Positions 25,781 to 48,193 of a stretch of DNA of 64,000 bases are shown piece by piece. The first letter of the stretch is position 1. Each line of letters opens with the position of its first letter. This stretch comes from Sporosarcina sp. E16_8 (GTDB lineage Bacteria > Bacillota > Bacilli > Bacillales_A > Planococcaceae), in contig NZ_JADPRZ010000006.1 of NCBI RefSeq assembly GCF_017347095.1, positions 62,001 through 126,000 on the forward strand, read 5' to 3'. A program made the translations under genes and the position numbers. The notes beneath the pieces were generated by a model, which did not search any database, had not been told where the DNA came from, and saw only the letters and a program-made list of their open reading frames with translations.

Positions 25781-26536
25781 TTAATAGAATAGATTGCCAT
25801 ACCAACCGACAAAATCAGCTCCCCAGAAGTAAGCAATGACAGCAGCCACCGCAATTGAGGGACCGAATGGGATAGGTGTTTTTCGTCCTTGCCCTGTCCG
25901 TTTCAATACGATTATCCCAACAATAGACCCGATAAATGCCGCTAAAAACAGCGTCACGAGCGTATTCGTTGTACCCAGCACAAGCCCGATAACGAAGAAT
26001 AATTTGATATCCCCACCACCCATGCCCCCTTTCGACACGACCGCGATTAGATAGAGGACTCCGAAGCCCACCAGAGCCCCGAGCAGGCTATCCCACCACG
26101 GCTCTAGATGAATGAACAGCCGAAGCCCAAGCAAGACGACAGCGAACGGTAACAGCACCTTATTAGGGATAAGCATATAGGCGATGTCCGACACCGTAAT
26201 GATGACAAGAAGCGACATGAACAAAATGGCGATAAATAATTCGCCGCTAAATCCGAGCATCGCGTAACTTAACACAAATAAAATCCCCGTCACCAACTCC
26301 ATGATTGGATAAATCGGGCTGATTTTCGTACCACATCCCCTACATGTACCTTGTAGAAATAGATAAGAAAAGACTGGAATTAGATCGACAACACCTAATT
26401 TCCGATCACAGATGGTGCAGTGTGAAGGAGGCGAAACAATTGACTCCTTCTTTGGCACACGTAATCCGACAACATTGAAAAATGATCCTAATACAATACC
26501 GTATAGGAAAAAGAAAACACCAATACTAATTCCCAT
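25781..26536 (-). CDS. comC: Type IV prepilin leader peptidase/methylase
   Basis: A 251-residue A24 aspartic protease with about eight membrane segments. The N-terminal cytoplasmic loop has CTICDRKLGVVDLIP and CRGCGTKISPIYP, the paired CxxC zinc site. Catalytic aspartates are in VSDIAYMLIPNKV and GGMGGGDIKLFF. It cleaves and N-methylates prepilins such as those encoded at 30795 and 45105-47752. Placement near spoIIB and folC corresponds to comC of B. subtilis; here it sits at the end of a full type IV pilus locus, so it likely serves pilus assembly as well as competence. Confidence 0.93.
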   Translation of the reverse strand: MGISIGVFFFLYGIVLGSFFNVVGLRVPKKESIVSPPSHCTICDRKLGVVDLIPVFSYLFLQGTCRGCGTKISPIYPIMELVTGILFVLSYAMLGFSGELFIAILFMSLLVIITVSDIAYMLIPNKVLLPFAVVLLGLRLFIHLEPWWDSLLGALVGFGVLYLIAVVSKGGMGGGDIKLFFVIGLVLGTTNTLVTLFLAAFIGSIVGIIVLKRTGQGRKTPIPFGPSIAVAAVIAYFWGADFVGWYGNLFY

Positions 26537-28457: not shown

Positions 28458-29141
28458 TCATTCGAATTCTCCCGCTTCCGTTCCATCATTGAAAGGTGTC
28501 GGATCTATTTTCTCACTTGATGGCGGTGCATTTGTTTTCGGTGCCTCATGTTGTAAATTCACTAAATCGGGACGATAAAAAGCAGAAAACGACACGGTCA
28601 TTTCAATTATCTCTTTTGAAGCTTCCTCATCGCGAATTTCCTGAGGCATGTTAAAACGAATCGAATCTATAATGAAAATACGTTCCATCTTTTCAATTTC
28701 ATCGACAAATTTTTCAATTCCTATGTATGAATCAGATTGAAGAACAACTTCGGTTAACAATTGATTGACGTTTTCAACCAATTCAGGCGGATTTTCAATC
28801 AGGAATTCACCCTGCGTAAACGTTATATCCTTTACTGTTGCGCCTGATTTTATTTCCGCTTTGCCGATTTGAAGCACAACAGCATCTTCCAGTGACTTTG
28901 TAGGAACTTTACGTTGCAATGGCTGAGAACTGGCAGCATCGGTTTTTCTGTTCGATGCTGATTGCTTTAGGAGTGCAAAATAGACATCGCGTTCATTGGA
29001 AGTCGTAAGCTTTATTTGCTCATTCGTTTCTTTAGCGGGCGTATAGACTTTAACATACGAATAGGCTGCAATGGAGAGTAAAAGTAAAACGGATAAGACG
29101 ACAAGGGCAATCTCCTTTTGACGTTTAGTCCAATTAGTCAC
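28458..29141 (-). CDS. pilO: Type IV pilus assembly protein PilO-like
   Basis: About 227 residues: a short cytoplasmic N-terminus, one membrane segment (about 12-32, EIALVVLSVLLLLSIAAYSY), then an extracytoplasmic alpha/beta domain and an acidic proline-rich tail. PilO forms the PilM-PilN-PilO alignment complex. The GTG at 29141 has AGGGGG nine bases upstream; ATG at 29150 and TTG at 29159 overlap that site. It overlaps the pilN stop. Assignment rests on topology and its place as third gene after pilM and pilN. Confidence 0.8.
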   Translation of the reverse strand: MTNWTKRQKEIALVVLSVLLLLSIAAYSYVKVYTPAKETNEQIKLTTSNERDVYFALLKQSASNRKTDAASSQPLQRKVPTKSLEDAVVLQIGKAEIKSGATVKDITFTQGEFLIENPPELVENVNQLLTEVVLQSDSYIGIEKFVDEIEKMERIFIIDSIRFNMPQEIRDEEASKEIIEMTVSFSAFYRPDLVNLQHEAPKTNAPPSSEKIDPTPFNDGTEAGEFE

Positions 29142-29778
29142 TCGATTCATCCCCCTCAACCGTGCTAGGCACTTCTTCTATCTCTTCCGTTGTTCCAGCT
29201 GTCCCTTCGGCTACAATTCGATGATCAATAAATTGTATGGAATACGTCGCAAGATAACGCGGCAGAACTTCCGTCGAATCACTGCCTTCTTCATCCGATT
29301 CTTCATCAATTACGACTGAATCTAAATGGATTTCTGAAACGGAAGGAGACGATTTCAAACGGGTGAAATAATAAGCACTTTCCGGTTTTGAATCGAACTG
29401 GATTGAAACTGTCGCTAAATTGGGCCCAGTAAAGTCAAATGTTTGAAAAAAACCGCGTTCAGGTAATAACACGATTAGTTCGTGCAATAGAGGTACAGTA
29501 TCATACTGATACTCTTCTGCCCATCCAACAGTTGTGGCTAACACTGTTTTCTCGTCGCCCGATTCAGAGTGTTGAAGTTCAGCACGAATTTCCTCTTGAC
29601 TCGCTTGAAGAGAAGTTAGCTGACTTTCAAGCGTTGCACTTTCACTAACAAGACTGTTTGTCAGCATGAGCGTGACAATATATACAAGAATAGCGGTGCC
29701 TATGATAGCCAGTGCTCCAACGAGAAGTTGTGAACGATCCTTCTCTCTTTCTGGCAATAGATTTATATCGACTAGCAT
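29134..29778 (-). CDS. pilN: Type IV pilus assembly protein PilN-like
   Basis: A 214-residue bitopic protein. It begins MLVDINLLPEREKDRSQLLV, and the INLLPxR motif is the conserved PilN segment that docks onto PilM. A membrane helix (about 20-42) and a coiled-coil (about 48-70) follow, then a ferredoxin-like domain and an acidic tail. It follows pilM by 2 bp. Confidence 0.87.
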   Translation of the reverse strand: MLVDINLLPEREKDRSQLLVGALAIIGTAILVYIVTLMLTNSLVSESATLESQLTSLQASQEEIRAELQHSESGDEKTVLATTVGWAEEYQYDTVPLLHELIVLLPERGFFQTFDFTGPNLATVSIQFDSKPESAYYFTRLKSSPSVSEIHLDSVVIDEESDEEGSDSTEVLPRYLATYSIQFIDHRIVAEGTAGTTEEIEEVPSTVEGDESSD

Positions 29779-29780
29779 AT

Positions 29781-30740
29781 CTACACCTCTTTCAATGCCA
29801 ACCCAATTGTCCGGTTAAAGCGTGCTGGTATTTCTTCCCCGTTTGCTAAATGTAAGGGTTCTTTAACCAATACATCCGCTTTGATGGCAAGGCGATCTCT
29901 GATGACAGAAAGTAACTCATTCATCCGGCTGTATTCGCCGTTCACAAGAAGATGCGTGATAGACGCCGCCCCATTCCACAAATTATAACGATAAAAGTTA
30001 ATGAGTTTTTCAAGTTCCATGACAATTGTCGAAGGCGTCACAATGCCCGTATCACTCGTAAAATCCCGAACGACAGATAAATCAGTAGAATTTTCAAGAT
30101 CGACTGGTCTCATGAAGAGCGGATAATGCTCATGAAAAATAGAAACGGTCAACTTTCCATGTGTTAAATCCGCCAAAAGGATATGCTCTTTACCTGATAA
30201 TTTGTGTTGTTTGAACGCCAGACGGTACAAGGCAAGTGGAGTAATATCAGCTTTCAACGGATCAAGTTTCACTTCTTTCAGGACATCTTCATAACGGTCA
30301 AGTACGCCTTCTTTTGACGCAATAATAATCGCTTCGTTTGTTTCAGTGTTCGGTTTATAAGGGACAACGTCAAAGACCGGATCATCAAAAGGAAGATACA
30401 GCGTAGAGCCGATTTCAATGAAGAAATAGCCTTTCAATTCGTCAGCCATGACATCCATGGGGTAGGGAACTTTGCGGATAATAACATATTGATCCGGGGC
30501 GAGGAATTGGACGGATCGATTGGAGATTCCCCACTGTCCGACAGCCCCGTCCAAAATCGTCACAAGTGTTTCCGAATCGACAATCTTCCCCTCGACAACG
30601 ACGTTCGGAGGAAGTAGTACTTCCTCCGCAACATCAATGACGAGCGGTTCAATAGACTTCAACCGAACGAACCGAACTGCATCTTCTTCAATTGTCATGG
30701 ATTCGGTGCGCTTGCGGCGGGTGAATATGGACATGGGCAT
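29781..30740 (-). CDS. pilM: Type IV pilus assembly ATPase-fold protein PilM
   Basis: A 319-residue cytoplasmic protein of the FtsA/actin-like PilM family, with segments EEDAVRFVRLKSIEPLVIDV, LADLTHGKLTVSIFHEHYPL and the C-terminal IGLALKEV. It forms the inner-face ring that binds the PilN tail. The ATG at 30740 has AGGAG six bases upstream. It starts the pilMNO group after the major pilin gene. Confidence 0.85.
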   Translation of the reverse strand: MPMSIFTRRKRTESMTIEEDAVRFVRLKSIEPLVIDVAEEVLLPPNVVVEGKIVDSETLVTILDGAVGQWGISNRSVQFLAPDQYVIIRKVPYPMDVMADELKGYFFIEIGSTLYLPFDDPVFDVVPYKPNTETNEAIIIASKEGVLDRYEDVLKEVKLDPLKADITPLALYRLAFKQHKLSGKEHILLADLTHGKLTVSIFHEHYPLFMRPVDLENSTDLSVVRDFTSDTGIVTPSTIVMELEKLINFYRYNLWNGAASITHLLVNGEYSRMNELLSVIRDRLAIKADVLVKEPLHLANGEEIPARFNRTIGLALKEV

Positions 30741-30794: not shown

Positions 30795-31241
30795 TTATTC
30801 ACTAATTGTCTTATCACCGTCCGATGTTCCCTTAACTTTATCTTTATTAATTCCTGTAATTGTGGCCTTTGTAAATGTAATTTTCTTTGTTCCAGAAAAT
30901 TCTATAGCAGCTGTAGTTAACAAATTTTCACCTTTAGCAACTGGTGCTACAGAAGCCGTTCCTGGAATTTTTCCAAGACTATCTAGATAACCTTCACTTT
31001 CTAATATAGTTGCTGTAACAGCATCTGTGGCTGTTGGATCTTCAACAAAGTATAGATTGGCTGCACTTAAAACATTTAGTGCATCAGCTTTAACTGCATT
31101 ATATTTACTATTTTCAATAACTCCACCAATCGCTGGAATCGCAATCGCCGCAATAATCCCCAAAATAACAATAACCGCCAATAGCTCGACAAGCGTTAAT
31201 CCTTTTTCATTGTTTAAACGTTTCTGTATAAATTTCTTCAT
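30795..31241 (-). CDS. pilA: Type IV major prepilin (ComGC/PilA-like)
   Basis: A 148-residue prepilin. The leader MKKFIQKRLNNEKG is cleaved before LTLVELLAVIVILGIIAAIA, with Glu at +5 of the mature protein, the class III/IVa pattern. The globular part (about 55-148) is Ala/Thr-rich with no cysteine. The ATG at 31241 has GGGAGG upstream; the longer frame to 31262 is disfavoured. Its place between pilC and pilM suggests the major subunit of the pilus encoded here. Confidence 0.88.
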   Translation of the reverse strand: MKKFIQKRLNNEKGLTLVELLAVIVILGIIAAIAIPAIGGVIENSKYNAVKADALNVLSAANLYFVEDPTATDAVTATILESEGYLDSLGKIPGTASVAPVAKGENLLTTAAIEFSGTKKITFTKATITGINKDKVKGTSDGDKTISE

Positions 31242-31371
31242 GTGTAATTCCTCCCTTTTCATTGTCGCATTTTGCTTACCTCTTCAGTATACCTCAATAA
31301 AAGTAATATGAAACTAGTAATTTATTAAAAACTATGTCGTTTTTACTAATATTAGAAATTACCCCTACCAT

Positions 31372-32577
31372 TCAGTCTATATTATTAAATATTTCGAACA
31401 TCGGCATCATTATCGCAAGGACTATAGTCCCGACTAATCCAGCTAATAAGACAATCATCAATGGTTCAATTAGCGCTTTCAATCGATCCGTCGCAGCTTC
31501 CACTTCTTTCTCGTAGAAATCGGCAACTTTCGCCAACATCGCGTCCAGCGACCCCGTTTGCTCGCCAATCGCAATCATATGTGGAATTAGCGGAGGAAAT
31601 GCCCAATGCCCGTTCATCGGTTCAGTCAACGAACCGCCACGTTCCAACGACTCTCGCGATCTTGCAATCACGCGCGAAATAACTTCATTTTCGACTACCT
31701 TTTCCGTCATGGACATGGCTTGTAAAATTGGTACGGAACTGGCAAACAATGAACTCAACGTCCGTGTCATTGTTGCCAGGACGGATTTCTTCATGATGTC
31801 ACCGAAAATAGGAAGCCTCAAAAGAAATGTATCGAGCAAAAACTTTCCTTCTTTATTACTCTTCATCATCCAAATACCACCAACAACTAACAATGCGAAT
31901 AATACGAGTAAGTACCAATATGTGGTCACAAATTCACTCGCGTTCATCACGAAACGCGTAATCCAAGGCAACTCTCCCCCAAAACTAGCAAACATGTCAA
32001 CAAACATCGGCACAATCGTCGTCAATAGAAAGATAACAACCCCAATTGCGAGTACTGCAACAATCAACGGATAAGACATGGCTGAAACTACTTTTTGTCT
32101 CAATTGATGTGATTTCTCAAAATGGTCAGCAAGACGGTCAAGTGAATCATCGATTGTCCCTGACATCTCTCCAGCCCGCACCATATTCACAACGATCGGT
32201 TCAAATGCTTTTGGATGCTTTATAAACGCCTCGGATAATGAGCCGCCTCCACGCAAATCATCGTTCACAGTGACGAGAATCTTTTGAAACGGTTTTGATT
32301 CGACTTGCAAGGCAAGAATTCGGATTGCATCAATGATTGTAACCCCTGCACGAAGAAGCGTTGAAAATTGACGGAGGAACATGATTAAATGTTCTCGTTT
32401 CACGGGTTTTCCAATGACAATATCTTTTGTCAGCGCCGTTTCCGCCTGGGCAGTCATGTTAGTTACTCGAATCCCCTGGCTTTTTAGCTTAATAGCAGCT
32501 TCACGCTTGTCCACTGCAACGATTACACCTGAACGAATGGATTTAGCGTCGCGTCCTTCATATTTAAACCGAGCCAT
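31372..32577 (-). CDS. pilC: Type IV pilus inner-membrane platform protein PilC
   Basis: A 401-residue T2SSF-family protein. It begins ARFKYEGRDAKSIRSGVIVA, and has two cytoplasmic T2SSF domains with FLRQFSTLLRAGVTIIDAIR and the repeat TRTLSSLFASSVPILQAMSM. Three membrane segments are placed as usual; the last is VLLAGLVGTIVLAIMMPMFE. It is the platform on which PilB and PilT act. It follows pilT by 2 bp. Confidence 0.94.
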   Translation of the reverse strand: MARFKYEGRDAKSIRSGVIVAVDKREAAIKLKSQGIRVTNMTAQAETALTKDIVIGKPVKREHLIMFLRQFSTLLRAGVTIIDAIRILALQVESKPFQKILVTVNDDLRGGGSLSEAFIKHPKAFEPIVVNMVRAGEMSGTIDDSLDRLADHFEKSHQLRQKVVSAMSYPLIVAVLAIGVVIFLLTTIVPMFVDMFASFGGELPWITRFVMNASEFVTTYWYLLVLFALLVVGGIWMMKSNKEGKFLLDTFLLRLPIFGDIMKKSVLATMTRTLSSLFASSVPILQAMSMTEKVVENEVISRVIARSRESLERGGSLTEPMNGHWAFPPLIPHMIAIGEQTGSLDAMLAKVADFYEKEVEAATDRLKALIEPLMIVLLAGLVGTIVLAIMMPMFEIFNNID

Positions 32578-32579
32578 CG

Positions 32580-33617
32580 CTACTCATCCCCTTCCAAATA
32601 CGGCATAGCAGTGTCATATGAAATGATTCCTTTGTCGAGGAAGGTCTGGACGGTCGATGCCATCATATGCATACCTGCTGCACGATTTGTCTGGATGATG
32701 GAGGGAATTTGATGAACTTTCTCCGTTCGAATTAAGTTCGCAATTGCAGGATTATTAACCATCACTTCTGTCGCAGCCCTTCTCCCTTTTCGATCTGCGG
32801 TTTGGAATAAGCGCTGCGAAATGACGGCTGTTAGCACACCCGCTAGCTGTACTCGGATTTGAGATTGCTGCCCATGTGGAAATACGTCAATAATCCTGTC
32901 AATTGTAGAAGCCGCACTCCAAGTATGCAGCGTCGCTAACACGAGGTGACCCGTTTCTGCAGCAGTGATTGCTGTCGAAATCGTTTCTAGGTCACGCATT
33001 TCACCGACAAGAATGACATCAGGATCTTGCCGCAGCGCCGCTCGTACACCTGATGTAAACGAAGCCGTATCAAACCCGACTTCCCGCTGATCAATAATTG
33101 AGGTGCCATGCACATGCATGTACTCTATCGGATCTTCCAGCGTAATAATATGTTTTCGCATCGTTTCATTCATGTATTTTATCATTGCTGCAAGTGTCGT
33201 CGATTTACCCGATCCTGTTGGCCCCGTCACAAGGATGAGTCCCTGAGGAGTATGCGCCAACTTCTTCAATGTATCGGGCAATTGGAGATCATCGATTGTT
33301 GGAATTTTTGTTGGAATCGTCCGAAAAGCAAGCGAGACCGATCCGCGTTGTTGAAATGCATTAACACGGAACCGCGCGACCCCAGGAACTTCATAAGAAT
33401 AATCGATCTGACCATGTTCTATAAAGTCAGGATACAATTTATCGGGAATCGTAATTTGTGCAACTGATTCTGTGAAAGGATTAGTAACCACCAATTCGCC
33501 ATACCGTTTCAAATCGCCATGCACTCTGAATACAGGTGGCACTCCAACTGTAAGATGGACATCTGAAGCACTAAATTCAAACGCTATCTTTAGCAGCTCA
33601 TCAATCTCATTTTTCAA
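32580..33617 (-). CDS. pilT: Twitching motility retraction ATPase PilT
   Basis: A 345-residue hexameric ATPase. Walker A is LVTGPTGSGKSTTLAAM, the Asp box TLEDPIEYMH, Walker B VILVGEMRDLETI, and the retraction-specific C-terminal part includes AIANLIRTEKVHQIPSIIQ, close to the AIRNLIRE motif of PilT. It powers pilus retraction, so the pilus is predicted to be dynamic. A TTG start at 33617 has GGGGGA upstream. Confidence 0.94.
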   Translation of the reverse strand: MKNEIDELLKIAFEFSASDVHLTVGVPPVFRVHGDLKRYGELVVTNPFTESVAQITIPDKLYPDFIEHGQIDYSYEVPGVARFRVNAFQQRGSVSLAFRTIPTKIPTIDDLQLPDTLKKLAHTPQGLILVTGPTGSGKSTTLAAMIKYMNETMRKHIITLEDPIEYMHVHGTSIIDQREVGFDTASFTSGVRAALRQDPDVILVGEMRDLETISTAITAAETGHLVLATLHTWSAASTIDRIIDVFPHGQQSQIRVQLAGVLTAVISQRLFQTADRKGRRAATEVMVNNPAIANLIRTEKVHQIPSIIQTNRAAGMHMMASTVQTFLDKGIISYDTAMPYLEGDE

Positions 33618-33628
33618 AAATAATCCCC

Positions 33629-35287
33629 CTATTCAATCAATGCGACGCGCAATACTTCTTCTGTCGTCGTAATCCCTTGTTTCACTTTCAACAAACCATC
33701 GTCCATTAAAAACACGGTCTTATTGCGAATGGCAATTCCCCTTAATTGTGCAGAAGAACCGCCCCTATTTATAACGTCCCGCATGTCATCATCCAATACG
33801 AGCACTTCATGAATTGCAATCCGCCCCCGGTAACCGGTCAAATTACAAACCGCGCAGCCAGAACCTCTCATCACTTTTTCAATCGTAATACCACGCTTCG
33901 CAAAAATTTCGATTTCACGACTCGTTGCCGCCATTTCCCGTCCGCAATCTCTGCACACTCGTCTGATAAGCCTTTGCGCAATAACTGCGTTTAACGATGA
34001 CGTAACTAGAAACGGTTCAACCCCCATGTCGAGCATTCTTGTAACGGTAGCAATAGAGTCATTCGTATGGATGGTGCTGAGGACTAAGTGACCGGTTAAC
34101 GAAGCTCGAATCGCTATCTCAACCGTTTCCCGGTCCCGTATTTCCCCAACCATAACGATATCGGGGTCTTGCCTTAAGATTGATCGAAGTCCGGCCGCAA
34201 ATGTCAATCCAACATTCGGATTGACTTGAATCTGATTTACCCCAGCTAACTGGTACTCGACTGGATCCTCAACCGTAATGATATTGACTTCCTCGGTATT
34301 CAATTTATTGAGCGCAGCATAGAGCGTCGACGATTTACCTGATCCGGTAGGGCCTGAAATTAGGACAATGCCACTCGGTTTCTCAATTTGTTCAAGGAAG
34401 CGTTCTAGATTCAAGCGATTAAATCCTAATTTCGTTAAATCATTTAATGAACTGCTTAAATCCAGAATTCGCATAACAATTTTTTCACCATAAACCGTGG
34501 GTAACGTGGAGACACGAAGATCGATCGGCCTGAAATCCACGTTCGTCTTAATCCGACCATCCTGAGGTATCCGGTGTTCCGTTATGTCCAAATTCGCCAT
34601 AATTTTTATGCGCGCACTAATCATCGCTTGCATATGTTTCGGTAAAAAACGTTCCGATTTCAGCATGCCATCTATTCGAAAACGGATGGCAACCTGGTGT
34701 TCCTGAGGATCAAAATGGATATCACTCGCCTTTTGCGTAATAGCTGAAGACATCAACTGATTGACCAACCGAACAATTGGTGAATCCAAATCCGTCAACT
34801 CGTCTTGCTGCTCCAATTGTTCAGGCGTCTGCTCCATAAAGAGCTCATCAAATGATTCCTCATCATAATACTTAGAGATTGTTCGCATAATATCGTCTTT
34901 TGAAGCAATTGCAGTTTCAATATGAAATCCAGTGGAAAGCCTTAAATCGTCCACAGTTATATAATCCATCGGGTCGGACATCGCCACGAATAGTCTATCC
35001 CCATCAGCTTTTAGGGGTACAATTAAATTACGTTTGGCGAATTCTTTCGGCACAACATTAAATAACTTCGGATCGAAAGGATATCTAAAAAGATTGACGT
35101 GAGGAATACCTAATTGGAATTCCAACACTTCAATAAGTTGCTGTTCTGTAATAAATCCGTGTTGGAGGAGCGCATCGCCGAGTTTTAGATCTCTTGGTTT
35201 TTCACTTAATGTTGTTTGCAGTTGTTCATTCGTGAGTAGACCGGACTCGACGAGCAAGTCACCGAGTCTTTTGCGTGTTGTCGTCAT
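33629..35287 (-). CDS. pilB: Type IV pilus extension ATPase PilB with MshEN-like N-terminus
   Basis: A 552-residue assembly ATPase. Residues about 1-65 contain two RLGDLLVESGLLTNEQL-type motifs (the second KLGDALLQHGFITEQQLIEV), the MshEN signature that in other PilB/MshE proteins binds c-di-GMP. The core has Walker A LISGPTGSGKSSTLY, Asp box TVEDPVEYQL, Walker B IVMVGEIRDRETV and the zinc-binding CRDC and CAVC pairs. It is the first pilus engine gene in the operon. Regulation by c-di-GMP is inferred from the motif and the nearby GGDEF genes. Confidence 0.93.
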   Translation of the reverse strand: MTTTRKRLGDLLVESGLLTNEQLQTTLSEKPRDLKLGDALLQHGFITEQQLIEVLEFQLGIPHVNLFRYPFDPKLFNVVPKEFAKRNLIVPLKADGDRLFVAMSDPMDYITVDDLRLSTGFHIETAIASKDDIMRTISKYYDEESFDELFMEQTPEQLEQQDELTDLDSPIVRLVNQLMSSAITQKASDIHFDPQEHQVAIRFRIDGMLKSERFLPKHMQAMISARIKIMANLDITEHRIPQDGRIKTNVDFRPIDLRVSTLPTVYGEKIVMRILDLSSSLNDLTKLGFNRLNLERFLEQIEKPSGIVLISGPTGSGKSSTLYAALNKLNTEEVNIITVEDPVEYQLAGVNQIQVNPNVGLTFAAGLRSILRQDPDIVMVGEIRDRETVEIAIRASLTGHLVLSTIHTNDSIATVTRMLDMGVEPFLVTSSLNAVIAQRLIRRVCRDCGREMAATSREIEIFAKRGITIEKVMRGSGCAVCNLTGYRGRIAIHEVLVLDDDMRDVINRGGSSAQLRGIAIRNKTVFLMDDGLLKVKQGITTTEEVLRVALIE

Positions 35288-37330: not shown

Positions 37331-39076
37331 TCATAATGTTTCGATTAATTCCTTTCCATAAATCCCGACTTTATTCCTTCCAGCTTGCTTGCCACCTATG
37401 TACATTGCTCGGTCGGCATTACGCAACAGCTCTTTCGCATCTCCTGCATCCTCAGGAACACAAGCAACGCCAATACTAACAGTCATATGGATATCAACAG
37501 GCTCGCGCTCTTTAGATAGATCTGGAATGATTCGGAACGCAGATGATTCCACTTCTCTACGAATTTCTTCAGCGAGTTTGGCAGTTTCACGTTTCCCGTA
37601 ATTCGGCAAGACGATGACGAATTCTTCCCCTCCATATCGTGAAAGTGTTGCTTCGACTGGAACAAATGATTCAAGCAGTCTAGCAAGTGCCTTAAGAAGG
37701 TCATTCCCACTCTGATGTCCATATGTATCATTAATCGATTTAAAATGGTCGATATCTAGCATTAAAACTGAAAGCGAATTTATTTCCCCTATATGAAATC
37801 GGATGATTTCTTCGTCCAATTTTGAATTGAGGTAGCGGAAGTTATGCAAACCGGTCAAACCACACCGTACACTTTGCTCAACAGTCTTTTCGTAATAGCG
37901 TGCCTTCACTAATGAAATTGCAAAGTATCCAGTTAGAACGTCAACGATTTTCATTTCCAGCGCCTGAAATACATTTTTCCGCCTGGAAGTTAGTATAAGA
38001 AACCCTTCCGTTTTCTGATTTCGCTTGATTGGAGCGGTCATGACACTTTCTACTCTTTGTAGAAATTCGAAGTTATTTAGTACCATTGCTTCCTTTTTAG
38101 TCGCAAAAATTTTTGGATTGTCTATATCCAATCCATCATCCACAGTCTTTTTCAGTTTGAATGAAAGTCCATTCACTTTTTTTGTAATAACCCCATATTC
38201 TGAAGCCATCAACGTTATCAAATGCTCCCCATTTCTTAGGTCCAGGACATAAGCATTATCATAAGGGACCACATCTTTCAGTTTTTCGATGAACGTCCGA
38301 ATCACGTCTTCAAAGCCAAGGCGCTCGGCAAGTTCGCGCCCGATAATACCGGCAGAAGAAAGTTTGTCATTCAAATTATCGGACCGATTATACATTCTTG
38401 CAATTAATAAAACAAGAAGGAACGGGATGCCAATCAAAAGGATTGCATTATTACCAAAGTGGCCATTTAGAAAATAAAGGGTAATGCTGAACGGTAGTAA
38501 AATCATTGTAGAAGCAAAATCCCATAGAACAAATTTTTCCTTCAAAGAATATATGCCGAGTTCAAAATATAAATAGACTTGCATCAAAACACTATTAATA
38601 GTCGTATAACTAATGGCATAAATAAGTCCGAATAAGCAGATGTTCAAAAAATCCGTCGAACCAATTTCTCCACCTGCAAAATGAAATAAAGTTCCGCTCG
38701 CTAGTGAGATGAGTGTGAAGATTATCGAATTCACGCAAAAACGATGCAAAAGTGGCAAATCTGATTTCGTGCTCAATACTAGTATAAGCATTGCAATTTG
38801 CGTGAAAACCAACTCCGTAAATACCCCGTATTGAAAAAAAATAGTGAATGTAATCCAACGTTCAAATGAAACCGTAATATTGTTTAATTGCAAAGGCATT
38901 GTCATCGTCACGAATAGCAGTGCGAACAAAATGCTCAGATTCAACCATTCTATTTCTCTTGAAGGAAATAAAGTGAATGCAAGAAAGATGCCGAGAGGAA
39001 CGATACCAATCCACGTAATAAAGGAAATAATCTGAAATCTTATAGATATCACCAACTCCACGGCACTTCCTTTCAT
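37331..39076 (-). CDS. Membrane GAF-GGDEF diguanylate cyclase, paralogue 1
   Basis: A 581-residue protein. The N-terminal half (about 1-225) has about eight membrane segments and a GGEIGSTDF loop. A GAF-like domain (about 250-395) precedes a GGDEF domain (about 400-575) with LTGLHNFRYLNSKLDEEI, SVLMLDIDHFKSINDTYGHQ and an intact RYGGEEFVIVL signature, so c-di-GMP synthesis is predicted. No RxxD inhibitory site precedes GGEEF. It is adjacent and similar throughout to the gene at 39081, indicating tandem duplication. Both sit just upstream of the pilus operon. Confidence 0.88.
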   Translation of the reverse strand: MKGSAVELVISIRFQIISFITWIGIVPLGIFLAFTLFPSREIEWLNLSILFALLFVTMTMPLQLNNITVSFERWITFTIFFQYGVFTELVFTQIAMLILVLSTKSDLPLLHRFCVNSIIFTLISLASGTLFHFAGGEIGSTDFLNICLFGLIYAISYTTINSVLMQVYLYFELGIYSLKEKFVLWDFASTMILLPFSITLYFLNGHFGNNAILLIGIPFLLVLLIARMYNRSDNLNDKLSSAGIIGRELAERLGFEDVIRTFIEKLKDVVPYDNAYVLDLRNGEHLITLMASEYGVITKKVNGLSFKLKKTVDDGLDIDNPKIFATKKEAMVLNNFEFLQRVESVMTAPIKRNQKTEGFLILTSRRKNVFQALEMKIVDVLTGYFAISLVKARYYEKTVEQSVRCGLTGLHNFRYLNSKLDEEIIRFHIGEINSLSVLMLDIDHFKSINDTYGHQSGNDLLKALARLLESFVPVEATLSRYGGEEFVIVLPNYGKRETAKLAEEIRREVESSAFRIIPDLSKEREPVDIHMTVSIGVACVPEDAGDAKELLRNADRAMYIGGKQAGRNKVGIYGKELIETL

Positions 39077-39080
39077 TAAT

Positions 39081-40802
39081 TCATTTCACATATTCAGCAA
39101 CCCTATTGCGCCCTGCCTGCTTCGCACCTAAATATAGTGCACGATCCGCATTTCGCAGTAATGTCATCGCTTCATCTGTATCTAAAGGAGATGACGAAAC
39201 ACCGATACTGGACGTAATATGGACGACAAGCGGATACTTATCCTCGACTAGATCTGGAATTATGGTGAAATCATGGCTACCAATTTCAGCGCGAAGTTTT
39301 TCTGCGAACTCGACGGCTTCAGCTTTCGCAATACCTGGTAAAATGTAGACGAACTCTTCTCCTCCATAGCGGCCAACTGTCCCGCCAGTAGGTAGTGCAA
39401 CTTCAAGTTTCTTAGCAAACAGATAAAGTATGTCGTTCCCACTTTGATGTCCATAAGTGTCATTCACTTGTTTAAAATAATCAATATCAAGCATAACGAC
39501 TGAAAGATTGTTTATTTCGTTGTTTTTAAGCCTGTCCATTTCATACGTTAACCGTTCCTCAAGATACCTGTAGTTATAAAGCCCGGTTAACGCACAACGC
39601 TCATTCTTTGCAACTGCCTCTTGCATATAACGTGCTTTTTCCACTGAAACAGTGAAATAGGAACATAGTAAGTCTAAGATTTTCAATTGATAGCCATCAA
39701 AGAATGATTTCTTATCTGAGGCTAAAAACAAAACTGACTCAATTTTCTGGTTCCGTGAAATTGGGACACATAGTATACTTTGCATTCCATTAGGTGAATA
39801 ATCTTTTGAAACCAATTCCCACTCTTTCCTTTCCGAATAGATGATTGGCTTATTCTGTTCAAGAACTGATCCCGCAATTCCTTGGCCCGCGGATAGAAGG
39901 GCAAAATCAATGTCAATGAATTTTTCATGTTCATAGGAACGGATGAGCTCAAGCCAACCATCCTGATGGTCAAATAAATACGTATAATCTGCATTGAACA
40001 TGGTCGAAACTTTCATAACAAATTGGTCAATTACAGCCTTTTCCGTTAATAATTCTGAAAGGCCGTTACCAATGTCCCCCGCTTGCCGCAAATCAATATT
40101 GATTCTTTCCGAATTGTTATAAAGGCGGATAATTATTGAAATAAAGAAAAAAGGAATTCCTATTAATAAAAAAGATCCTGCTCCAACAAATTTCAGTAAA
40201 TAATAGAACGTAAGCGACAAGGGCAGAACAACAAGAATCATCGCATAGTCAACCAATAGATCTTTTGAAAAGAAAGGCGAGTTAACTTTTTTGTAAACCG
40301 CATATATTCTCAGCACTATGTCATTGAATACTGTATGGATGAATTGATAGCAGAATACCGCAATGATTACTGGCCAAAATTCAATAGAGCCGATTTCCCC
40401 ACCCACCCTATCAAAAACGACAGCAGCGATAATCGATAAAAAGATAAACAGTGTCGAGTTAATGAAAAAACGTTGTAGCAATGGTAACTTACTCGGCGAT
40501 GACATAAGGATTGCAAGAATTGAAATTTGCATGACGATTATTTCAATAAAGAGTCCATACATTAAAAAAGCGGGCACAGTCACCCAGAGAACCAGGAATA
40601 TCGGTATACCGTTCCTTAACATCGGATAGTAGGTTGTGAGGAATCCGAATACTATAAAAACCACCATGTACATCCAGTTTACTTGCACTGGAGGATAATT
40701 CAAAAAAACATAAATCAATCCAGTTGGAACCGTCAGTAACCACAAAATGAAATAACGCATAGTGGACTTATATACAACCTTCACTTCATTATCCACTCCC
40801 AA
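39081..40802 (-). CDS. Membrane GAF-GGDEF diguanylate cyclase, paralogue 2
   Basis: A 573-residue protein of the same architecture as its neighbour: about eight membrane segments (GGEIGSIEF loop conserved), a GAF-like domain (about 245-390) and a GGDEF domain with LTGLYNYRYLEERLTYEMDR, SVVMLDIDYFKQVNDTYGHQ and RYGGEEFVYIL. No RxxD inhibitory site is present. The TTG at 40802 has no well-spaced ribosome site; a GTG slightly downstream preceded by GGGAG is an alternative. Four bp separate it from paralogue 1, so they are co-transcribed. The sensed signal is unknown. Confidence 0.87.
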   Translation of the reverse strand: MGVDNEVKVVYKSTMRYFILWLLTVPTGLIYVFLNYPPVQVNWMYMVVFIVFGFLTTYYPMLRNGIPIFLVLWVTVPAFLMYGLFIEIIVMQISILAILMSSPSKLPLLQRFFINSTLFIFLSIIAAVVFDRVGGEIGSIEFWPVIIAVFCYQFIHTVFNDIVLRIYAVYKKVNSPFFSKDLLVDYAMILVVLPLSLTFYYLLKFVGAGSFLLIGIPFFFISIIIRLYNNSERINIDLRQAGDIGNGLSELLTEKAVIDQFVMKVSTMFNADYTYLFDHQDGWLELIRSYEHEKFIDIDFALLSAGQGIAGSVLEQNKPIIYSERKEWELVSKDYSPNGMQSILCVPISRNQKIESVLFLASDKKSFFDGYQLKILDLLCSYFTVSVEKARYMQEAVAKNERCALTGLYNYRYLEERLTYEMDRLKNNEINNLSVVMLDIDYFKQVNDTYGHQSGNDILYLFAKKLEVALPTGGTVGRYGGEEFVYILPGIAKAEAVEFAEKLRAEIGSHDFTIIPDLVEDKYPLVVHITSSIGVSSSPLDTDEAMTLLRNADRALYLGAKQAGRNRVAEYVK

Positions 40803-43041: not shown

Positions 43042-43835
43042 AGGGATATGTTTATTATTCAAAGGCTGAATCAGTGAGGAATCATCTGTTTATTGATGAT
43101 TTGATAATCGAATCTGAAAAACTTGGGATTGAGCTCCGATTATTAACTGGGGATGAACGGCCCGATTCGAATACTGATTTCATTCTTTTCCGGGATCGGG
43201 ATACTGGTCGAGCTTTCCAGTTTGAAAGGGATGGTTTAAGGCTATTTAATCGTGCTGAAGTAAATCGGATTGCGAATGATAAATTACAGACATTTGAACT
43301 GGCTACCCTGCTCGGTATTCCTGCCGTTCCGACAAATAGAATTCTTTCTATTGATGAAATCAGTTCCTATCCTTGTGTATTGAAAACGGTCGATGGTCAT
43401 GGAGGGAACGAAGTTTTTCTTTGTACATCTGCTGCAGACACGAAGTTGTTTTTCACCAAATTCCACGACCGAAAACTAATTGTCCAACCCTTCATCGAAT
43501 CCGGCGCCCGAGATATACGCGTATTTATGATTGGCAATGAAGTTGTCGGAGCTGTAAAACGCACCGGCAACGGGTCATTCAAATCAAATTATACGCTTGG
43601 TGGTTCCGTCGAAAAATACATACTATCTAGCTGGCAGGAAAAAGATGCCAAAACTATTTCCTTAGCAATAAAAAGTGATTATGTCGGAATTGACTTCTTG
43701 TTGTTGCCAAATGGCAGATGGATGTTGAATGAGATTGAGGATCCTGTTGGGGCGCGATCACTGTATATAACGCATGAGTTTTCGGTGGCTGGGGAATTAA
43801 TGAGGTATATTAAGAGGAAGCTTTCCAAGGATTAA
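43038..43835 (+). CDS. RimK-like ATP-grasp ligase, second of a coupled pair
   Basis: A 265-residue ATP-grasp protein. Recognisable are NDKLQTFELATLLGIPAVPT, CVLKTVDGHGGNEVFLC, IVQPFIESGARDIRVFMIGN and a C-terminal RWMLNEIEDPVGARSLY, where NEIED replaces the usual ExN metal motif and is likely still functional. It is shorter than typical RimK (about 300). It overlaps its partner by 4 bp, so both are made together and may form a heteromer or act in sequence. A long hairpin terminator follows. No precursor peptide gene was seen next to the pair. Confidence 0.78.
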   Translation: MKGYVYYSKAESVRNHLFIDDLIIESEKLGIELRLLTGDERPDSNTDFILFRDRDTGRAFQFERDGLRLFNRAEVNRIANDKLQTFELATLLGIPAVPTNRILSIDEISSYPCVLKTVDGHGGNEVFLCTSAADTKLFFTKFHDRKLIVQPFIESGARDIRVFMIGNEVVGAVKRTGNGSFKSNYTLGGSVEKYILSSWQEKDAKTISLAIKSDYVGIDFLLLPNGRWMLNEIEDPVGARSLYITHEFSVAGELMRYIKRKLSKD

Positions 43836-43882
43836 TTAGTGACAAGTATTTGGGAAACATAAAGACAAACTCCATGAGTAAA

Positions 43883-43928
43883 CATGCAAAAGCTCAGACA
43901 TCTTCGTAGATGTCTGAGCTTTTGCATG
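43883..43928 (+). terminator. Terminator after the ATP-grasp pair
   Basis: A perfect 21-bp stem (43883-43903 and 43908-43928) with a TCGT loop is followed by ATATTTTAATT. It lies about 50 bp after the second ligase. The remaining 43929-44251 contains a family A repeat and two short GTGACTG-CAC motifs but no gene. Confidence 0.85.
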
Positions 43929-43989
43929 ATATTTTAATTGAGTAAGTGGTATTAAGAATGGCATCCGAGTGACTGACACCATGGATGAA

Positions 43990-44076
43990 GTTGAGATACA
44001 GATTCCCTTCCAATCCGCTGCGGCGCTTGGGGGATGCCTCCCGCCATAAGCCTGTAAGGCGCCTTCGCTCGATTTT
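43990..44076 (+). repeat. Family A repeat, copy 4
   Basis: It contains CCAATCCGCTGCGGCGCTTG, GGGGATGCCTCCCGCC and CCTGTAAGGCGCCTTCGCTC. These match both ends of copy 1 with the central hairpin missing. It is intergenic, downstream of the ATP-grasp pair. Confidence 0.75.
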
Positions 44077-44251
44077 CGCTTCTAGTCATATGTTTAATAT
44101 ATATTCGTTAACCTAAAGACAGATAGAATTCCAAAGCTGTTTTTAGCCAGAGAACTCATTATAATTGAATTGTGAGAGTGACTGGCACTAAAAATTAATT
44201 TGTTCTCGTCTAAGTTCCCAGTAACTCCAATGAATTTATGACATAAACATC

Positions 44252-44710
44252 TTACCATTTAATAATCTTGGACTCTTTAAGAATCTCAAAATCCTCAGAA
44301 ACCAAAATTACTTTGTCTACCTTATACTTCGAATCTAATGTCTTATCATTGAAATAAGACAAAATGCCACCCATATAGTTGTGTGCTTTCCCATCAAAGC
44401 TTTCCCCCTTAGATTGCACAACAAAAACCCTACCACTTTCATTAATAGTGGCAGATGAGCCTGATATTGAATCATACCAAGTTGTTTCGAAAACACTTCC
44501 GAAGTTTAGATACATATACTGATCCACTTCTTTTTTAATGAAGGCTTCTAAGTTCGGCTGCGATCCATCACTTCTTAGCTCACTATAAGGATCTCGAGTA
44601 TAAATTGTGTCGTTAGCAAAAAAAGTGCTCGACTCGAAACTATTCGTACTCAGGTAAATTGCTGCAATTGTAATAATTACGATAATGAGTGCATGGTGTC
44701 TTTTCTTCAC
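44252..44710 (-). CDS. Small secreted or membrane-anchored protein of unknown function
   Basis: A 152-residue protein not recognised. It starts MKKRHHALIIVIITIAAIYL, a positively charged N-terminus with one hydrophobic helix, suggesting an anchor or signal peptide. The mature part is hydrophilic, lacks cysteines and ends KILKESKIIKW-like (EILKESKIIKW). It lies about 400 bp downstream of the minor pilin cluster in the same direction but beyond its terminator. Base composition is AT-rich like the minor pilin genes. A surface role is possible; no function can be assigned. Confidence 0.6.
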   Translation of the reverse strand: MKKRHHALIIVIITIAAIYLSTNSFESSTFFANDTIYTRDPYSELRSDGSQPNLEAFIKKEVDQYMYLNFGSVFETTWYDSISGSSATINESGRVFVVQSKGESFDGKAHNYMGGILSYFNDKTLDSKYKVDKVILVSEDFEILKESKIIKW

Positions 44711-44960
44711 AATAACTTCCTCCGAATTTCATTATTCTGTAAGTTATTTATGAGAATACTATAGATCTTTCAAGGATAGCTTGAGTGACCCCCAGCATCC
44801 GGGATTAACTAAATATTTTATATGTACTAGGAATATTAGGAATGACATCCAATTGCCTGTCACCACTGCCCTCCGACAACGTTCTTCACGTTGCCATAAT
44901 ACAAACTCAGTAACAGGGCAAACGGTGACTCGCACCGGAGATTAAAAAGCTCAGTTGAAA

Positions 44961-45009
44961 AGGTGCCAGGTTATAAAATGATTTAGAATTGCTACACAAC
45001 CTGGCACCT
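44961..45009 (-). terminator. Terminator after the minor pilin cluster
   Basis: A perfect 12-bp stem AGGTGCCAGGTT (44961-44972) and AACCTGGCACCT (44998-45009) is followed on the minus strand by TTTTC. It lies about 95 bp beyond the last gene. The rest of 44711-45104 has no gene; it carries scattered GTG-CTGGCACC-type motifs, and an AACACCAT/ATGGTGTT pair near 45068-45100. Confidence 0.65.
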
Positions 45010-45104
45010 CGCACTCTATGCAATGCTGGTTGGCGCCTCTTGCAAATATTAACCTTCTATTCTTAAAATTCGTAAACACCATTGAATTATATTAAAATAT
45101 GGTG

Positions 45105-46781
45105 TTATTTATAATCTACTTTTTCTGTAATAGGTTTGTATTTATACCAGTCAATCAAGTTAGGCACTACCGTTGATTCTTGGTTCTGAATATCCGGAGT
45201 CTTTGGATATTCTATTTTTAATGTAAAACTACATTTTTCATTATATTCTTTTTGTGATAATTTAATAATACTGTTATTTGACTTATTCGAAGTGTTCAAG
45301 TAAAATACTTTACTTCCTAGCATATTGAGATCTCTAACTTCAAAGTTTTCTGTACAGTAAGTGGAGTTTTGTAATTCCAAAACATCAATCTTGGTAGACT
45401 TAGTTATGACTATTGAATTTCCAACTTTAATCTTTACTGGTGAGCTGAAAGTCTGGCCAACTTTTAATACTGAATGATCAAATTCCGAGGGAGTATTTAT
45501 TTTCAAATAATCTCCTATTACCACCTCTGATTTTTGTAGTTTCAAAGATTGGGGTGAATCTAAATAAGAGTTCACTTTCATTTTTGTATCTTGAAATTCC
45601 CCGCCAGTATTTAGTTTTAAATAATCTCCAATAATTATTTCAGAATCCCTTATACTTAATCTGGAAGGTGCATCTAAGTATTTACCAACCTTAAGAGAAG
45701 ATGATTCTAGATTTCCACCACTATTAAACTTCATAAATCCTCCTACAGTAAGTTGAGTTTTATGAATTATAATGGAGTTTGGTGTATTGAAATCTGTGCC
45801 TACCTGCATGATAGAGTCTAGTATCTTACTACCTGAACTAGATGCGAGGTAAGATTTCCCAATCAAAACATTTGATTTTTCAAAGTGAATTGTCCCCGTA
45901 TCTTTAAAGTCGCCACCTATAAAGGCAGAAGAGTCATGTATCTTTGAACCTCCATATTTACTTATATTCCCATCAACAAATAACTTGGATTTTTGTACGT
46001 CTAAAAAGCTACCATTCGTATAAGCTTTCATGCGAAAATAAGAATCCTGTATTTTCAAGTCTTTATATCCAGAATAATCACCATCTAAATACACAACAGA
46101 CATTTTTGAAATAGACTCTAAATCGGATGTTTTGTTCGTCGGATACAAACATTTTTCATCTGTAATATGCGTTAACTTTTCACATGTTTTTGTGGGCTTT
46201 ATAACATCTTCACCCTTATCAGTACTAGGAGTAATATTAGGTATAAAAAAAACCATTTGAAACATCAGCTCTTCACTCTTTTTTTCCTTGTCATTTCCAT
46301 TCTCCTTCTCACCTATTACATCTCCTGTAAAAGTAATTTTACGATTTCCATTTTTAAGTTGTTCTTCATTGATTCTTTTAGTTAGAAGTCTATGATAGTA
46401 TTTATCAGTCATCCTGACTGGTCCTAATTCCATCATTTCATTTGCTTTATTATCAATTTTATCCATTAAATCACTCACCAAAAAGTCCTGGATTCCTTGA
46501 TAATTTATAGGATTATCTTTACCATTTTTCGCATCTTGGACTTTTTTCTCTAACAATCTCTGTAGTTCATCTCCATCATATTCTTTTTTTAATTCCCACG
46601 TATAATAGTCTATACCTGATTCAGCAGACACGACGACTAGATTATTTTCATCAAGCGTTTTTTCTTGTGTAGCGTTACTTAACGCACCATGCATAAAAAC
46701 GGCCGTTATTACAGTGATAAATACAATCGCAAATAAAACGATAAGTAGAGCATACCCTTTTTCATTGTTTTGCTTTTTCAT
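45105..46781 (-). CDS. Pilin-like protein with a solenoid-type repeat domain (PilX position)
   Basis: A 558-residue protein. The N-terminus KKQNNEKGYALLIVLFAIVF looks like a prepilin leader with cleavage after Gly and a pilin helix, but the +5 residue is not Glu (YALLI), as in ComGG or PilX-type minor pilins. A helical region follows (about 60-180). Residues about 228-495 contain roughly thirteen tandem units of about 19 residues with the pattern xxVGxYLxxxxxLxIxxS (for example SLKVGKYLDAPSRLSIRDS), strongly suggesting a beta-solenoid. Cysteines lie outside the best repeats. It is third in the minor pilin cluster and is a candidate pilus-tip adhesin, by inference. Confidence 0.75.
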   Translation of the reverse strand: MKKQNNEKGYALLIVLFAIVFITVITAVFMHGALSNATQEKTLDENNLVVVSAESGIDYYTWELKKEYDGDELQRLLEKKVQDAKNGKDNPINYQGIQDFLVSDLMDKIDNKANEMMELGPVRMTDKYYHRLLTKRINEEQLKNGNRKITFTGDVIGEKENGNDKEKKSEELMFQMVFFIPNITPSTDKGEDVIKPTKTCEKLTHITDEKCLYPTNKTSDLESISKMSVVYLDGDYSGYKDLKIQDSYFRMKAYTNGSFLDVQKSKLFVDGNISKYGGSKIHDSSAFIGGDFKDTGTIHFEKSNVLIGKSYLASSSGSKILDSIMQVGTDFNTPNSIIIHKTQLTVGGFMKFNSGGNLESSSLKVGKYLDAPSRLSIRDSEIIIGDYLKLNTGGEFQDTKMKVNSYLDSPQSLKLQKSEVVIGDYLKINTPSEFDHSVLKVGQTFSSPVKIKVGNSIVITKSTKIDVLELQNSTYCTENFEVRDLNMLGSKVFYLNTSNKSNNSIIKLSQKEYNEKCSFTLKIEYPKTPDIQNQESTVVPNLIDWYKYKPITEKVDYK

Positions 46782-46803
46782 CTAATTAACCCCCTTCTTC
46801 CGT

Positions 46804-47295
46804 TTAATCTGGATCAACAAAATCGATTATATAACGGGAGATTGTAGTAGGCACTTCAACACGTTTTTCTTCATTATTTCTTTTAATCACAGGATCGATG
46901 ACCATAAAATCTTTGAGTTCCAAATTATCCTTTGGAGATGTATATGCCTTGTCAATATAAGGAGATTCTCCACTGTCTTTAAGCCGGTATTTAAATTGAT
47001 TACTGATTACCTTATTATATTTCGGTATGCTATTGCCTATATCATCCATACATTCCGCAACTTTAACTTTGTCACGAATAATTGTCAATTTATATTTGTA
47101 GCAATGCCGATGAACTTGTTGTAATTCAGCAATAATATAGTTTGCTTCTTGCTGTAATCGCAGACTAGAAGTTTCTGAAATATTAAACTTAGTAGCAATT
47201 GAAACAGTCGTCCAAATAATTCCTGTGATTAATGTCATAATGATAAGGGTAGCAAGTACTTCCACTAAAGTCATTCCATCTTCATTTTTCAGCAT
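46804..47295 (-). CDS. Minor prepilin, PilW/ComGF-like
   Basis: A 163-residue protein with the prepilin motif NEDGMTLVEVLATLIIMTLI: cleavage after Gly, Glu at +5, then the hydrophobic assembly helix. The C-terminal domain (about 50-163) is hydrophilic with two cysteines (HRHCYKY and VAECMDD) that may form a disulfide. It lies between the PilV-like gene and the repeat protein with short gaps, so the three are co-transcribed. It should be processed by the peptidase at 25781. Confidence 0.78.
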   Translation of the reverse strand: MLKNEDGMTLVEVLATLIIMTLITGIIWTTVSIATKFNISETSSLRLQQEANYIIAELQQVHRHCYKYKLTIIRDKVKVAECMDDIGNSIPKYNKVISNQFKYRLKDSGESPYIDKAYTSPKDNLELKDFMVIDPVIKRNNEEKRVEVPTTISRYIIDFVDPD

Positions 47296-47308
47296 GACAA
47301 TCCCTCCT

Positions 47309-47752
47309 CTACTCTAACTTTAGATAACCAAACGTTTCACTGTTTAATTTACCATCCTTCTCTACTTTGATATGAATTTTGTATAGCTTAGGTATTCTAG
47401 AAGTCTCGCCCGCACCACTACAAGTCTGGAACTGTGTATCGTAGCAATCCACTAGGATATCATAGTTGCCTTCAGACAAATCATATGTTTCGAAAAAGTA
47501 AGGACTCTTACTATTCATAATCCTTTTATCAGGATTTAATCGAGTAGGTGCACCCTTTAACTTTGTTAATTCTTGCTTAGCGATGTTCATCGTCACCAAT
47601 TTTGTCTCTGTCCTATTATTAATATTATTCATCTGAGGGAATATCGACATGAATCCAATAAACACAATACCTATAATAACAAGTGCGGCCAACACTTCAA
47701 CCAGTGTCAGTCCACCTTCCCCCATACCCCTCTTCAGTTTAAACTTCCCCAT
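47309..47752 (-). CDS. Minor prepilin, PilV-like
   Basis: About 147 residues with the prepilin motif GEGGLTLVEVLAALVIIGIV (Gly cleavage, Glu at +5). The soluble part has two cysteines (ILVDCYDTQFQTCSGAGE), likely a disulfide loop. The ATG at 47752 is preferred because AAAAGGA lies eight bases upstream; ATG at 47770 has none. It is first in the three-gene minor pilin cluster. The PilV, PilW, PilX-like order parallels minor pilin sets that prime pilus assembly in other bacteria. Confidence 0.8.
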   Translation of the reverse strand: MGKFKLKRGMGEGGLTLVEVLAALVIIGIVFIGFMSIFPQMNNINNRTETKLVTMNIAKQELTKLKGAPTRLNPDKRIMNSKSPYFFETYDLSEGNYDILVDCYDTQFQTCSGAGETSRIPKLYKIHIKVEKDGKLNSETFGYLKLE

Positions 47753-47792
47753 ATCTATCATCCTTTTCATTCGTACTATTAATGCCTATCCA

Positions 47793-47917
47793 AACCAAGC
47801 GAAGGTGCCTTACATGGGGTAGCAGAATTCCTAAGACTGACGGCGAAGCTGTCTGGCTTAGGGCTGGAGGCATCCCCTAGCGTCCTAGCGAATTCAATAG
47901 GATTCTCTATTTCAAGT
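47793..47917 (-). repeat. Family A repeat, copy 5 (inverted, long form)
   Basis: Read on the minus strand it gives CTATTGAATTCGCTAGGACG, GGGGATGCCTCC, CTAAGCCAGACAGCTTCGCC and CCATGTAAGGCACCTTCGCT, matching copy 1 over its full length. It is the only copy in reverse orientation. The remainder of the gene-free 47918-48193 shows no other feature. Confidence 0.75.
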
Positions 47918-48193
47918 TATATAATTGGAACATTTTGTAGAAAATCAAAATAATGAGTAACAAAGAATTCTCATCCATTCCTTTACTCCTATAAAACCGA
48001 TATATTCTTAATATTTCACAGACTCATATAAACCTATACTACCACATTTAGCGATTTTTAATCAAAGTTAAATTAACAGTTATTCAGTTTACTAAGCACT
48101 ATGTATAAGCTAAATGGAAAACCGCACAGGCGTTTTTCGACAGAACAATGACCGATAATTTCTTCATGACCCCCACGGCAAATTTATCAAAAC

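Follow-up and report, generated by a model that had tools for sequence, protein, structure and literature searches.

A PilX-like minor pilin of Sporosarcina sp. E16_8 with a predicted beta-solenoid head that relatives have probably exchanged

A 64,000-nucleotide stretch of the Sporosarcina sp. E16_8 genome (contig NZ_JADPRZ010000006.1, positions 62,001 to 126,000; hereafter the window) carries a gene for a PilX-like minor pilin whose predicted 13-coil beta-solenoid likely serves as a binding head at the tip of the type IV pilus. This head is far more variable than the pilus motor, its phylogeny disagrees with the species tree, and heads were likely exchanged by recombination; we put the probability of this reading at roughly 60%. 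An initial annotation made from the letters alone had described a pilin-like protein with tandem solenoid repeats and taken it for a candidate pilus-tip adhesin: the observation was confirmed, and the interpretation as a whole is partly supported. In the following, X denotes the family of pilX-like proteins to which the product of this gene belongs, and labels such as G217 or G209 denote the genomes of relatives.

The pilX-like gene and its predicted solenoid

The reading frame at 45105-46781 lies on the minus strand, starts with ATG and encodes a product of 558 amino acids (aa). Its parts are given below, with conservation counted in an alignment of 25 of the 33 homologues that were found.

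45105..46781, minus strand: pilX-like gene, 558 aa, minor pilin with a predicted beta-solenoid head (reading frame, repeats and model)
46755..46781, minus strand: prepilin-like leader, residues 1-9, predicted cleavage after Gly9 (sequence; Gly9 invariant in 25/25 rows)
46587..46754, minus strand: helix alpha1, residues 10-65, with Ile instead of Glu at +5 (two models)
46242..46400, minus strand: three-stranded beta meander, residues 128-180, part of the presumed pilin module (DSSP, two models)
45345..46106, minus strand: predicted beta-solenoid of 13 coils, residues 226-479
45231..45356, minus strand: C-terminal cap holding Cys476 and Cys517 (both in 25/25 rows)
45111..45131, minus strand: C-terminal beta strand, residues 551-557, proposed closer of the pilin sheet (DSSP; V555 and Y557 invariant in 25/25 rows)

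The N-terminus, NEKG/YALLIVLFAIVFITVITAVF, is prepilin-like, as the initial annotation had read it, though without Glu5. Together with the hydrophobic alpha1 and the additional predicted module at residues 226-479, which goes beyond a pilin fold, it gives X the apparent make-up of a modular minor pilin. A second cysteine pair, Cys200 and Cys211, precedes the solenoid and is present in 24 of the 25 rows. The strand at 551-557 is conserved and separate from the solenoid; its partner in the sheet is not readable from the model outputs. No Pfam or NCBIfam model scored over its cut-off against the window's X, which matches neither the PilX_N (PF14341) nor the DUF7305 (PF23981) Pfam model. The GspK profile matched one of the 25 rows, at an E value of 0.027, PilX_N was not among the profile matches of these rows at E 0.1, and one homologue (P0003) carries the source name 'PilX N-terminal'. 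Structure searches with the pilin part of X alone did not confirm a pilin fold.

The repeats emerge clearly when residues 225-480 are compared with themselves: against 300 shuffles the strongest lag was 38 residues (z = 9.8), followed by 19 (z = 6.3) and 57 (z = 4.0). Both the roughly thirteen 19-residue units and their alternation in 38-residue pairs, proposed in the initial annotation, are therefore real. With the register placed by eye, 13 coils cover residues 226-479, nine of them with exactly 19 residues and the others with 18, 20, 20 and 25. In the nine 19-residue coils positions 5, 7, 11 and 19 are hydrophobic, position 3 is mostly Ser or Thr and position 8 mostly Gly. The initial annotation had predicted a beta-solenoid and suggested structure prediction as a check, with a solenoid-free fold as the result that would speak against it; AlphaFold2 returned a parallel beta-solenoid with a predicted local distance difference test score (pLDDT) of about 90 or more over its blocks.

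To follow this plan across relatives, 40 regions were fetched, each picked for a PilW- or X-like match (a PilW-like match is present in 46 of 68 genomes of the genus), and X reading frames were accepted from 150 aa upwards. Such a frame occurs in 39 of the 40 regions, with lengths of about 379-736 aa, and in 37 of the 40 X directly follows PilV and PilW. Two others (L103, L104) hold X alone among unrelated genes; these are second long X proteins away from the pil genes (L103 6508-8715, 735 aa; L104 7043-9109, 688 aa), and G215 has an extra match similar to them. Further X matches in the genus sit in open frames as short as 326 aa. Changes in length mostly amount to ~35 residues, that is two coils: the stretch matching residues 228-475 comprises 247-249 residues in 8, 281-288 in 11 and 317-320 in 4 of the 25 rows, and 144 and 260 in one row each. 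The comparison of repeat number between relatives that the initial annotation had suggested thus yields steps of two coils. A period of 18-20 or 37-40 residues at z ≥ 3 was found in 27 of the 39 related X proteins, compared with one of 103 control proteins (FolC, ATP-grasp and PilB from the same regions); the remaining 12 show no 19/38 period at this threshold. Long X proteins are thus common among relatives, and with ComZ of Thermus there is a precedent elsewhere, so the view that such a fusion is unusual in a Gram-positive bacterium holds only against textbook PilX and ComGG proteins.

X goes with the type IV pilus machinery. X matches were obtained in 78 of 200 genomes of a family sample and in 117 of 250 genomes of an order sample, where every listed genome comes from the same family and many matches span the N-terminal part only. 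PilT scored over cut-off in 77 of the 78 family genomes that have an X match, compared with 80 of the 122 that have none. Glu5 is absent from all 40 X proteins (window included) and present in 39/39 PilW and 38/39 PilV proteins. GspK-type tip pseudopilins likewise lack Glu5 and are encoded beside minor (pseudo)pilins that have it; in this respect X resembles a tip subunit of the GspK/PilX type. The motif V/I/L-x-Tyr lies within the last 18 residues of 39 of the 40 X proteins, compared with 194 of 2000 control windows. As the helix at the start and the strand at the end of X are both constant, the variable module between them may be inserted into the pilin fold and not hung on its end.

The missing Glu5, the trio with two Glu5 pilins and the placement of alpha1 start and C-terminal strand among the most conserved parts would also suit a protein that only primes and caps the fibre in the manner of GspK, with the solenoid as a weakly constrained spacer that varies by neutral drift. 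However, the period kept in 27 of 39 proteins and the even number of cysteines in 38 of 40 suggest selection for the fold, and drift leaves the tree conflict, the abrupt DNA break and the second X family described below unexplained; we regard this explanation as unlikely.

Divergence of the head among close relatives

Across related genomes, no sequence of the locus is less conserved than X beyond alpha1. For 75 pairs with FolC identities of at least 70%, median identities were 93% for PilB (64 pairs), 89% for ATP-grasp, 50% for PilV, 43% for PilW, 64% for alpha1 of X and 27% for the rest of X. The rest of X had the lowest identity in 70 of the 75 pairs, while some pairs keep the head, with up to 91%. 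Over 595 pairs its rank correlation with FolC was 0.15, compared with 0.81 for ATP-grasp and 0.74 for PilB (435 pairs). The pairs were drawn from 35 of 41 gene sets; G222, G236, G020, G185 and the second loci of G157 and G190 were left out here and in the trees since FolC, ATP-grasp, PilV, PilW or X was absent.

Four relatives among the fetched regions carry a ValS that is 95-99% identical to that of the window, and their hemL, ATP-grasp, folC and GGDEF genes are 72-97% identical. In three of them (G209, G211 and G128) PilB and PilC reach 94-95% and PilA 52-60%, PilV 44-47% and PilW 35-42%, and X aligns only in part, with 32-42%. Sliding DNA identity with controls delimits the variable region in comparison with G209:

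about 43800..48150, no strand: segment whose DNA shows little resemblance to G209, with conserved flanks on both sides

As the presumed major pilin PilA varies here together with the tip pilins on a motor that is nearly constant in these three sister genomes, pilus phages or kin recognition could select for novelty of the head, with adhesion to a substrate as a secondary matter. Phages use type IV pili as receptors according to the abstract of PMC11841053, yet a literature search on Sporosarcina and type IV pili gave no phage or kin-recognition study, and we hold this explanation to be very improbable.

The fourth relative, G217, locates a break inside the gene. Its PilV and PilW are 88% and 80% identical to those of the window, and in X 51 of 60 residues are kept in positions 1-60, 39 of 125 in the following part and 92 of 355 in the insert. 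In 150-column blocks DNA identity is 73-96% up to ~46600 and then 40-63% to ~43920; it falls from 84-85% to chance level just behind the alpha1 codons. Blocks behind alpha1 give 41-61%, compared with 35-53% for shuffled, 40-53% for reversed and 35-59% for unrelated controls. Within the low stretch about 700 bases of the window are missing in G217, and 120-column blocks show one short patch of 78% at 44945-44831. The core pil operon of G217 (L118) is also divergent between conserved neighbours (PilB 61%, PilC 49%, PilM 27%; PilD 87%), and its motor genes may have been replaced too. In Pseudomonas, Giltner et al. (2011) reportedly described a type IVa pilin island whose minor pilin sets differ between strains; in our case the break against G217 falls inside the tip pilin gene, after alpha1.

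Trees point in the same direction. Prior to tree building, window, G217, G209, G211 and G128 were named as the test group according to their ValS identities among the fetched regions. The FolC tree unites these five genomes (99*), whereas the approximately unbiased (AU) test rejects the grouping for the X head (p-AU 1.6e-13), the post-alpha1 pilin part without the solenoid (2.8e-4), the X cap (3.9e-68), PilW (6.2e-6) and PilV (2.7e-5). Exchange is thus well supported by sequence for the five-genome group and less well for the pair of window and G217, where we argue for it because of the abrupt change of DNA behind alpha1.

A further search of the genus for ValS uncovered two more close genomes, G216 (ValS 99%) and G210 (97%), that had escaped the searches with PilW and X. 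In PilB they share 94-96% identity with the window. Both carry PilV, PilW and, in the pilX slot, a PilX_N-DUF7305 protein that passes both Pfam cut-offs (L141 4780-6219 and L142 9806-11245; about 480 aa, stop-to-stop frame). All six genomes with ValS identities of at least 95% therefore hold the trio in this slot, four with an X of the window type and two with the other family, and G216 and G210 stand outside the trees since their X belongs to that family. By eye, the glycine-rich repeats of the slot DUF7305 proteins look beta-solenoid-like.

The rival to be weighed here is that X evolves fast without any exchange between species. In its favour, trees can be blurred where divergence is saturated, and a sisterhood of window and G217 is not rejected by the X data (p = 0.12). 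Our trees are quick ones that contain long branches, and one join in the X tree looks suspicious. On the other hand, the G217 head is nearer to that of G039 (49%, at a FolC identity of 56%) than to that of the window (28%, FolC 81%), the AU rejections concern several separate parts, and a Pfam-distinct X family occupies the same site in G216 and G210. We consider fast evolution without exchange a very doubtful account and retain recombination of heads.

Several routes of exchange were tried and discarded. In the PilV shufflon of IncI plasmids a constant N-terminus is joined to interchangeable C-terminal segments that act as tip adhesins. Unlike that system, the window's gene has no internal set of suitable inverted repeats, and no recombinase was recognised among the open reading frames (ORFs) read between valS and folC, which speaks against a shufflon or silent cassettes. 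A second copy of the head was not found in the 138-contig genome at E ≤ 1. A GC-rich repeat of 23 nt bounds the pilVWX segment with inverted copies at 44030-44052 and 47855-47877 and also occurs at 4144-4166; the inverted copies were rejected as ends of a mobile cassette and treated as a dispersed repeat because the genome has 35 occurrences of their 12-base core (none of the reversed control). Movement of the trio as a single block was likewise rejected, as PilV and PilW identities hardly track X.

The surrounding type IV pilus system

The pilX-like gene closes a pilV-pilW-pilX trio, with the order valS, pilV, pilW upstream. Both partners carry Glu5, in keeping with the PilV- and PilW-like neighbours of the initial annotation. 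The window also holds the remainder of a type IVa pilus system: pilB, pilT, pilC, pilA, pilM, pilN, pilO and pilD lie 10-20 kb from the trio on the same strand. Some of the gene names rest on a family match and some on position.

46804..47295, minus strand: pilW-like minor pilin, Glu5 present (N_methyl over cut-off; weak ComGF-like match)
47309..47770, minus strand: pilV-like minor pilin, Glu5 present (IV_pilin_GFxxxE over cut-off; GspI and PilV below)
33629..35287, minus strand: pilB, extension ATPase with an MshEN motif for binding of cyclic di-GMP (T2SSE, MshEN and NF053729 over cut-off)
32580..33617, minus strand: pilT, retraction ATPase (TIGR01420 over cut-off)
31372..32577, minus strand: pilC, platform protein (GspF/PilC models full length, below cut-off)
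30795..31262, minus strand: pilA, presumed major pilin
28458..30740, minus strand: pilM (Pfam over cut-off) with pilN and pilO (by position)
25781..26536, minus strand: pilD, prepilin peptidase by reading of the sequence and position (no NCBIfam match)

For pilB the best match, TIGR02538 (type_IV_pilB), is yet below cut-off. The regions 26549-28161 and 37331-40802 near pilB hold two GGDEF genes assigned by Pfam and a third gene with a visible GGDEF stretch, which is split over the overlapping ORFs 26549-26992 and 26944-28161, a possible frame break. The MshEN motif of PilB and the GGDEF genes suggest, from sequence, a control of the pilus by cyclic di-GMP.

Other genes showed further peculiarities. 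After pilX, 44252-44710 encodes a protein of 152 aa whose N-terminus is hydrophobic and which matches no Pfam family; a tblastn comparison with the regions from four close relatives gave nothing at E 1e-3. The radC gene is apparently interrupted by a group II intron at 20943-23666 between its two parts (gene names by reading); the intron has two Rfam matches and a 640-aa ORF resembling reverse transcriptase. Elsewhere in the genome (G000:C3:117909-158082; L138-L140) a comGA-like gene is split: 39 kb separate its two halves, which share a strand, and the interval contains a prophage-like element (terminase, portal, tape measure, integrase, CI-like repressor). A study of Staphylococcus pseudintermedius is said to have described disruption of competence by a prophage involving comGA.

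Precedents and a model of interchangeable heads

For the architecture, the closest precedent is found in Thermus thermophilus with ComZ (PDB 6QVI); what is new is that heads have likely been traded. As described in passages of PMC6561018, ComZ is a large pilin without Glu5 that bears a beta-solenoid between the pilin body and the C-terminal strand, and its tip position was argued from size. The window's X shares the plan of a large pilin lacking Glu5, with its predicted solenoid ahead of the C-terminal strand. However, the ComZ solenoid is irregular and comprises ~380 residues, whereas the one predicted for X is regular with mostly 19-residue coils, and ComZ belongs to a diderm competence pilus whereas X belongs to a monoderm pil system with PilT. 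In a Foldseek search with the X model 6QVI ranks only 43rd at E 1.2, which is no significant match. ComZ was absent from a profile search of PDB sequences, and PDB sequence profiles gave nothing useful for X; GspK and ComZ are not among the VIA structure matches listed, an absence that excludes nothing.

The likeness to ComZ raises the question whether X could serve transformation as a receptor for DNA, the role proposed for the Thermus protein; its solenoid would bind extracellular DNA, which the pilus would then retract. Besides the common plan of a GspK-like pilin without Glu5 and with an apparently inserted beta-solenoid, the split of the strain's own comGA-like gene by the prophage-like element fits this idea, as the com pilus may be off. 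Yet a separate comG-like locus exists (ComGA matches below cut-off), and a role in DNA binding would not explain why the head is so variable. The net charge of the solenoid, -11 to +5 over the 25 aligned rows, also argues against it, although ComZ likewise has no positive patch. We judge a DNA receptor to be quite unlikely and prefer a variable binding head.

Other systems resemble X in part. In Streptococcus sanguinis the modular pilins PilB (vWA) and PilC (lectin) of a monoderm type IV pilus, likely located at its tip, are described in the passages of PMC8179133 concerned with them. They likewise carry a binding module grafted on a minor pilin. There the module follows the pilin module via a loop, whereas the conserved C-terminal strand suggests an insert in X, and the module of X has no database signature. 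GspK-type pseudopilins bear a large insert in the pilin sheet, as stated in parts of PMC6561018 and PMC8179133; it is alpha-helical, whereas the insert of X is a predicted beta-solenoid. The PilX_N-DUF7305 proteins (PF14341, PF23981) share with X the slot after PilV and PilW in two close relatives. Calcium-dependent beta-helices of the RTX/antifreeze type (3p4g) carry a GTGND-type calcium motif in each repeat; they are alike in fold only, and the repeat table of X shows no such motif.

Literature searches on pilins that carry a beta-solenoid or beta-helix gave ComZ as the sole such protein in titles and abstracts, and passages of PMC8179133 mention it. In the literature searched on Sporosarcina and type IV pili neither term appears in titles or abstracts, and within the literature searched there was no report of the window's X family or of head exchange.

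For X we infer export, prepilin processing, a tip position, insertion into the pilin sheet, a ligand, adhesion and a mechanism of exchange in the following way. PilD would cleave X after Gly9; X, which lacks Glu5, would enter first and with PilV and PilW prime the fibre as its cap, an order suggested by the analogy with GspK and ComZ. With the C-terminal strand as the proposed closer of the pilin sheet, the solenoid would form an insert anchored at both ends, and this rigid head could touch a surface, a polymer or a neighbouring cell before PilT pulls it back. Recombination between related species would swap heads, with homology provided by the flanks (valS, ATP-grasp) or by the alpha1 codons, and PilV and PilW would be exchanged too, though out of step with X.

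Extended to the family, pili of Planococcaceae would carry interchangeable heads, in which a conserved docking helix and a closing strand hold a solenoid tip module. Species would swap these heads by recombination, either just past the helix or in an exchange that takes in PilV and PilW at a fixed slot, and specificity would travel like a serotype locus; we give this wider proposal an even chance.

The determinants of pilus specificity in Gram-positive bacteria are poorly known. Some forty alleles of a single presumed tip head, combined with a nearly constant motor, would form a natural test set for binding at the pilus tip. With the Planococcaceae, another lineage besides Thermus with its ComZ would possess a solenoid-bearing pilin, here with the probable exchange of modules inside the pilin gene.
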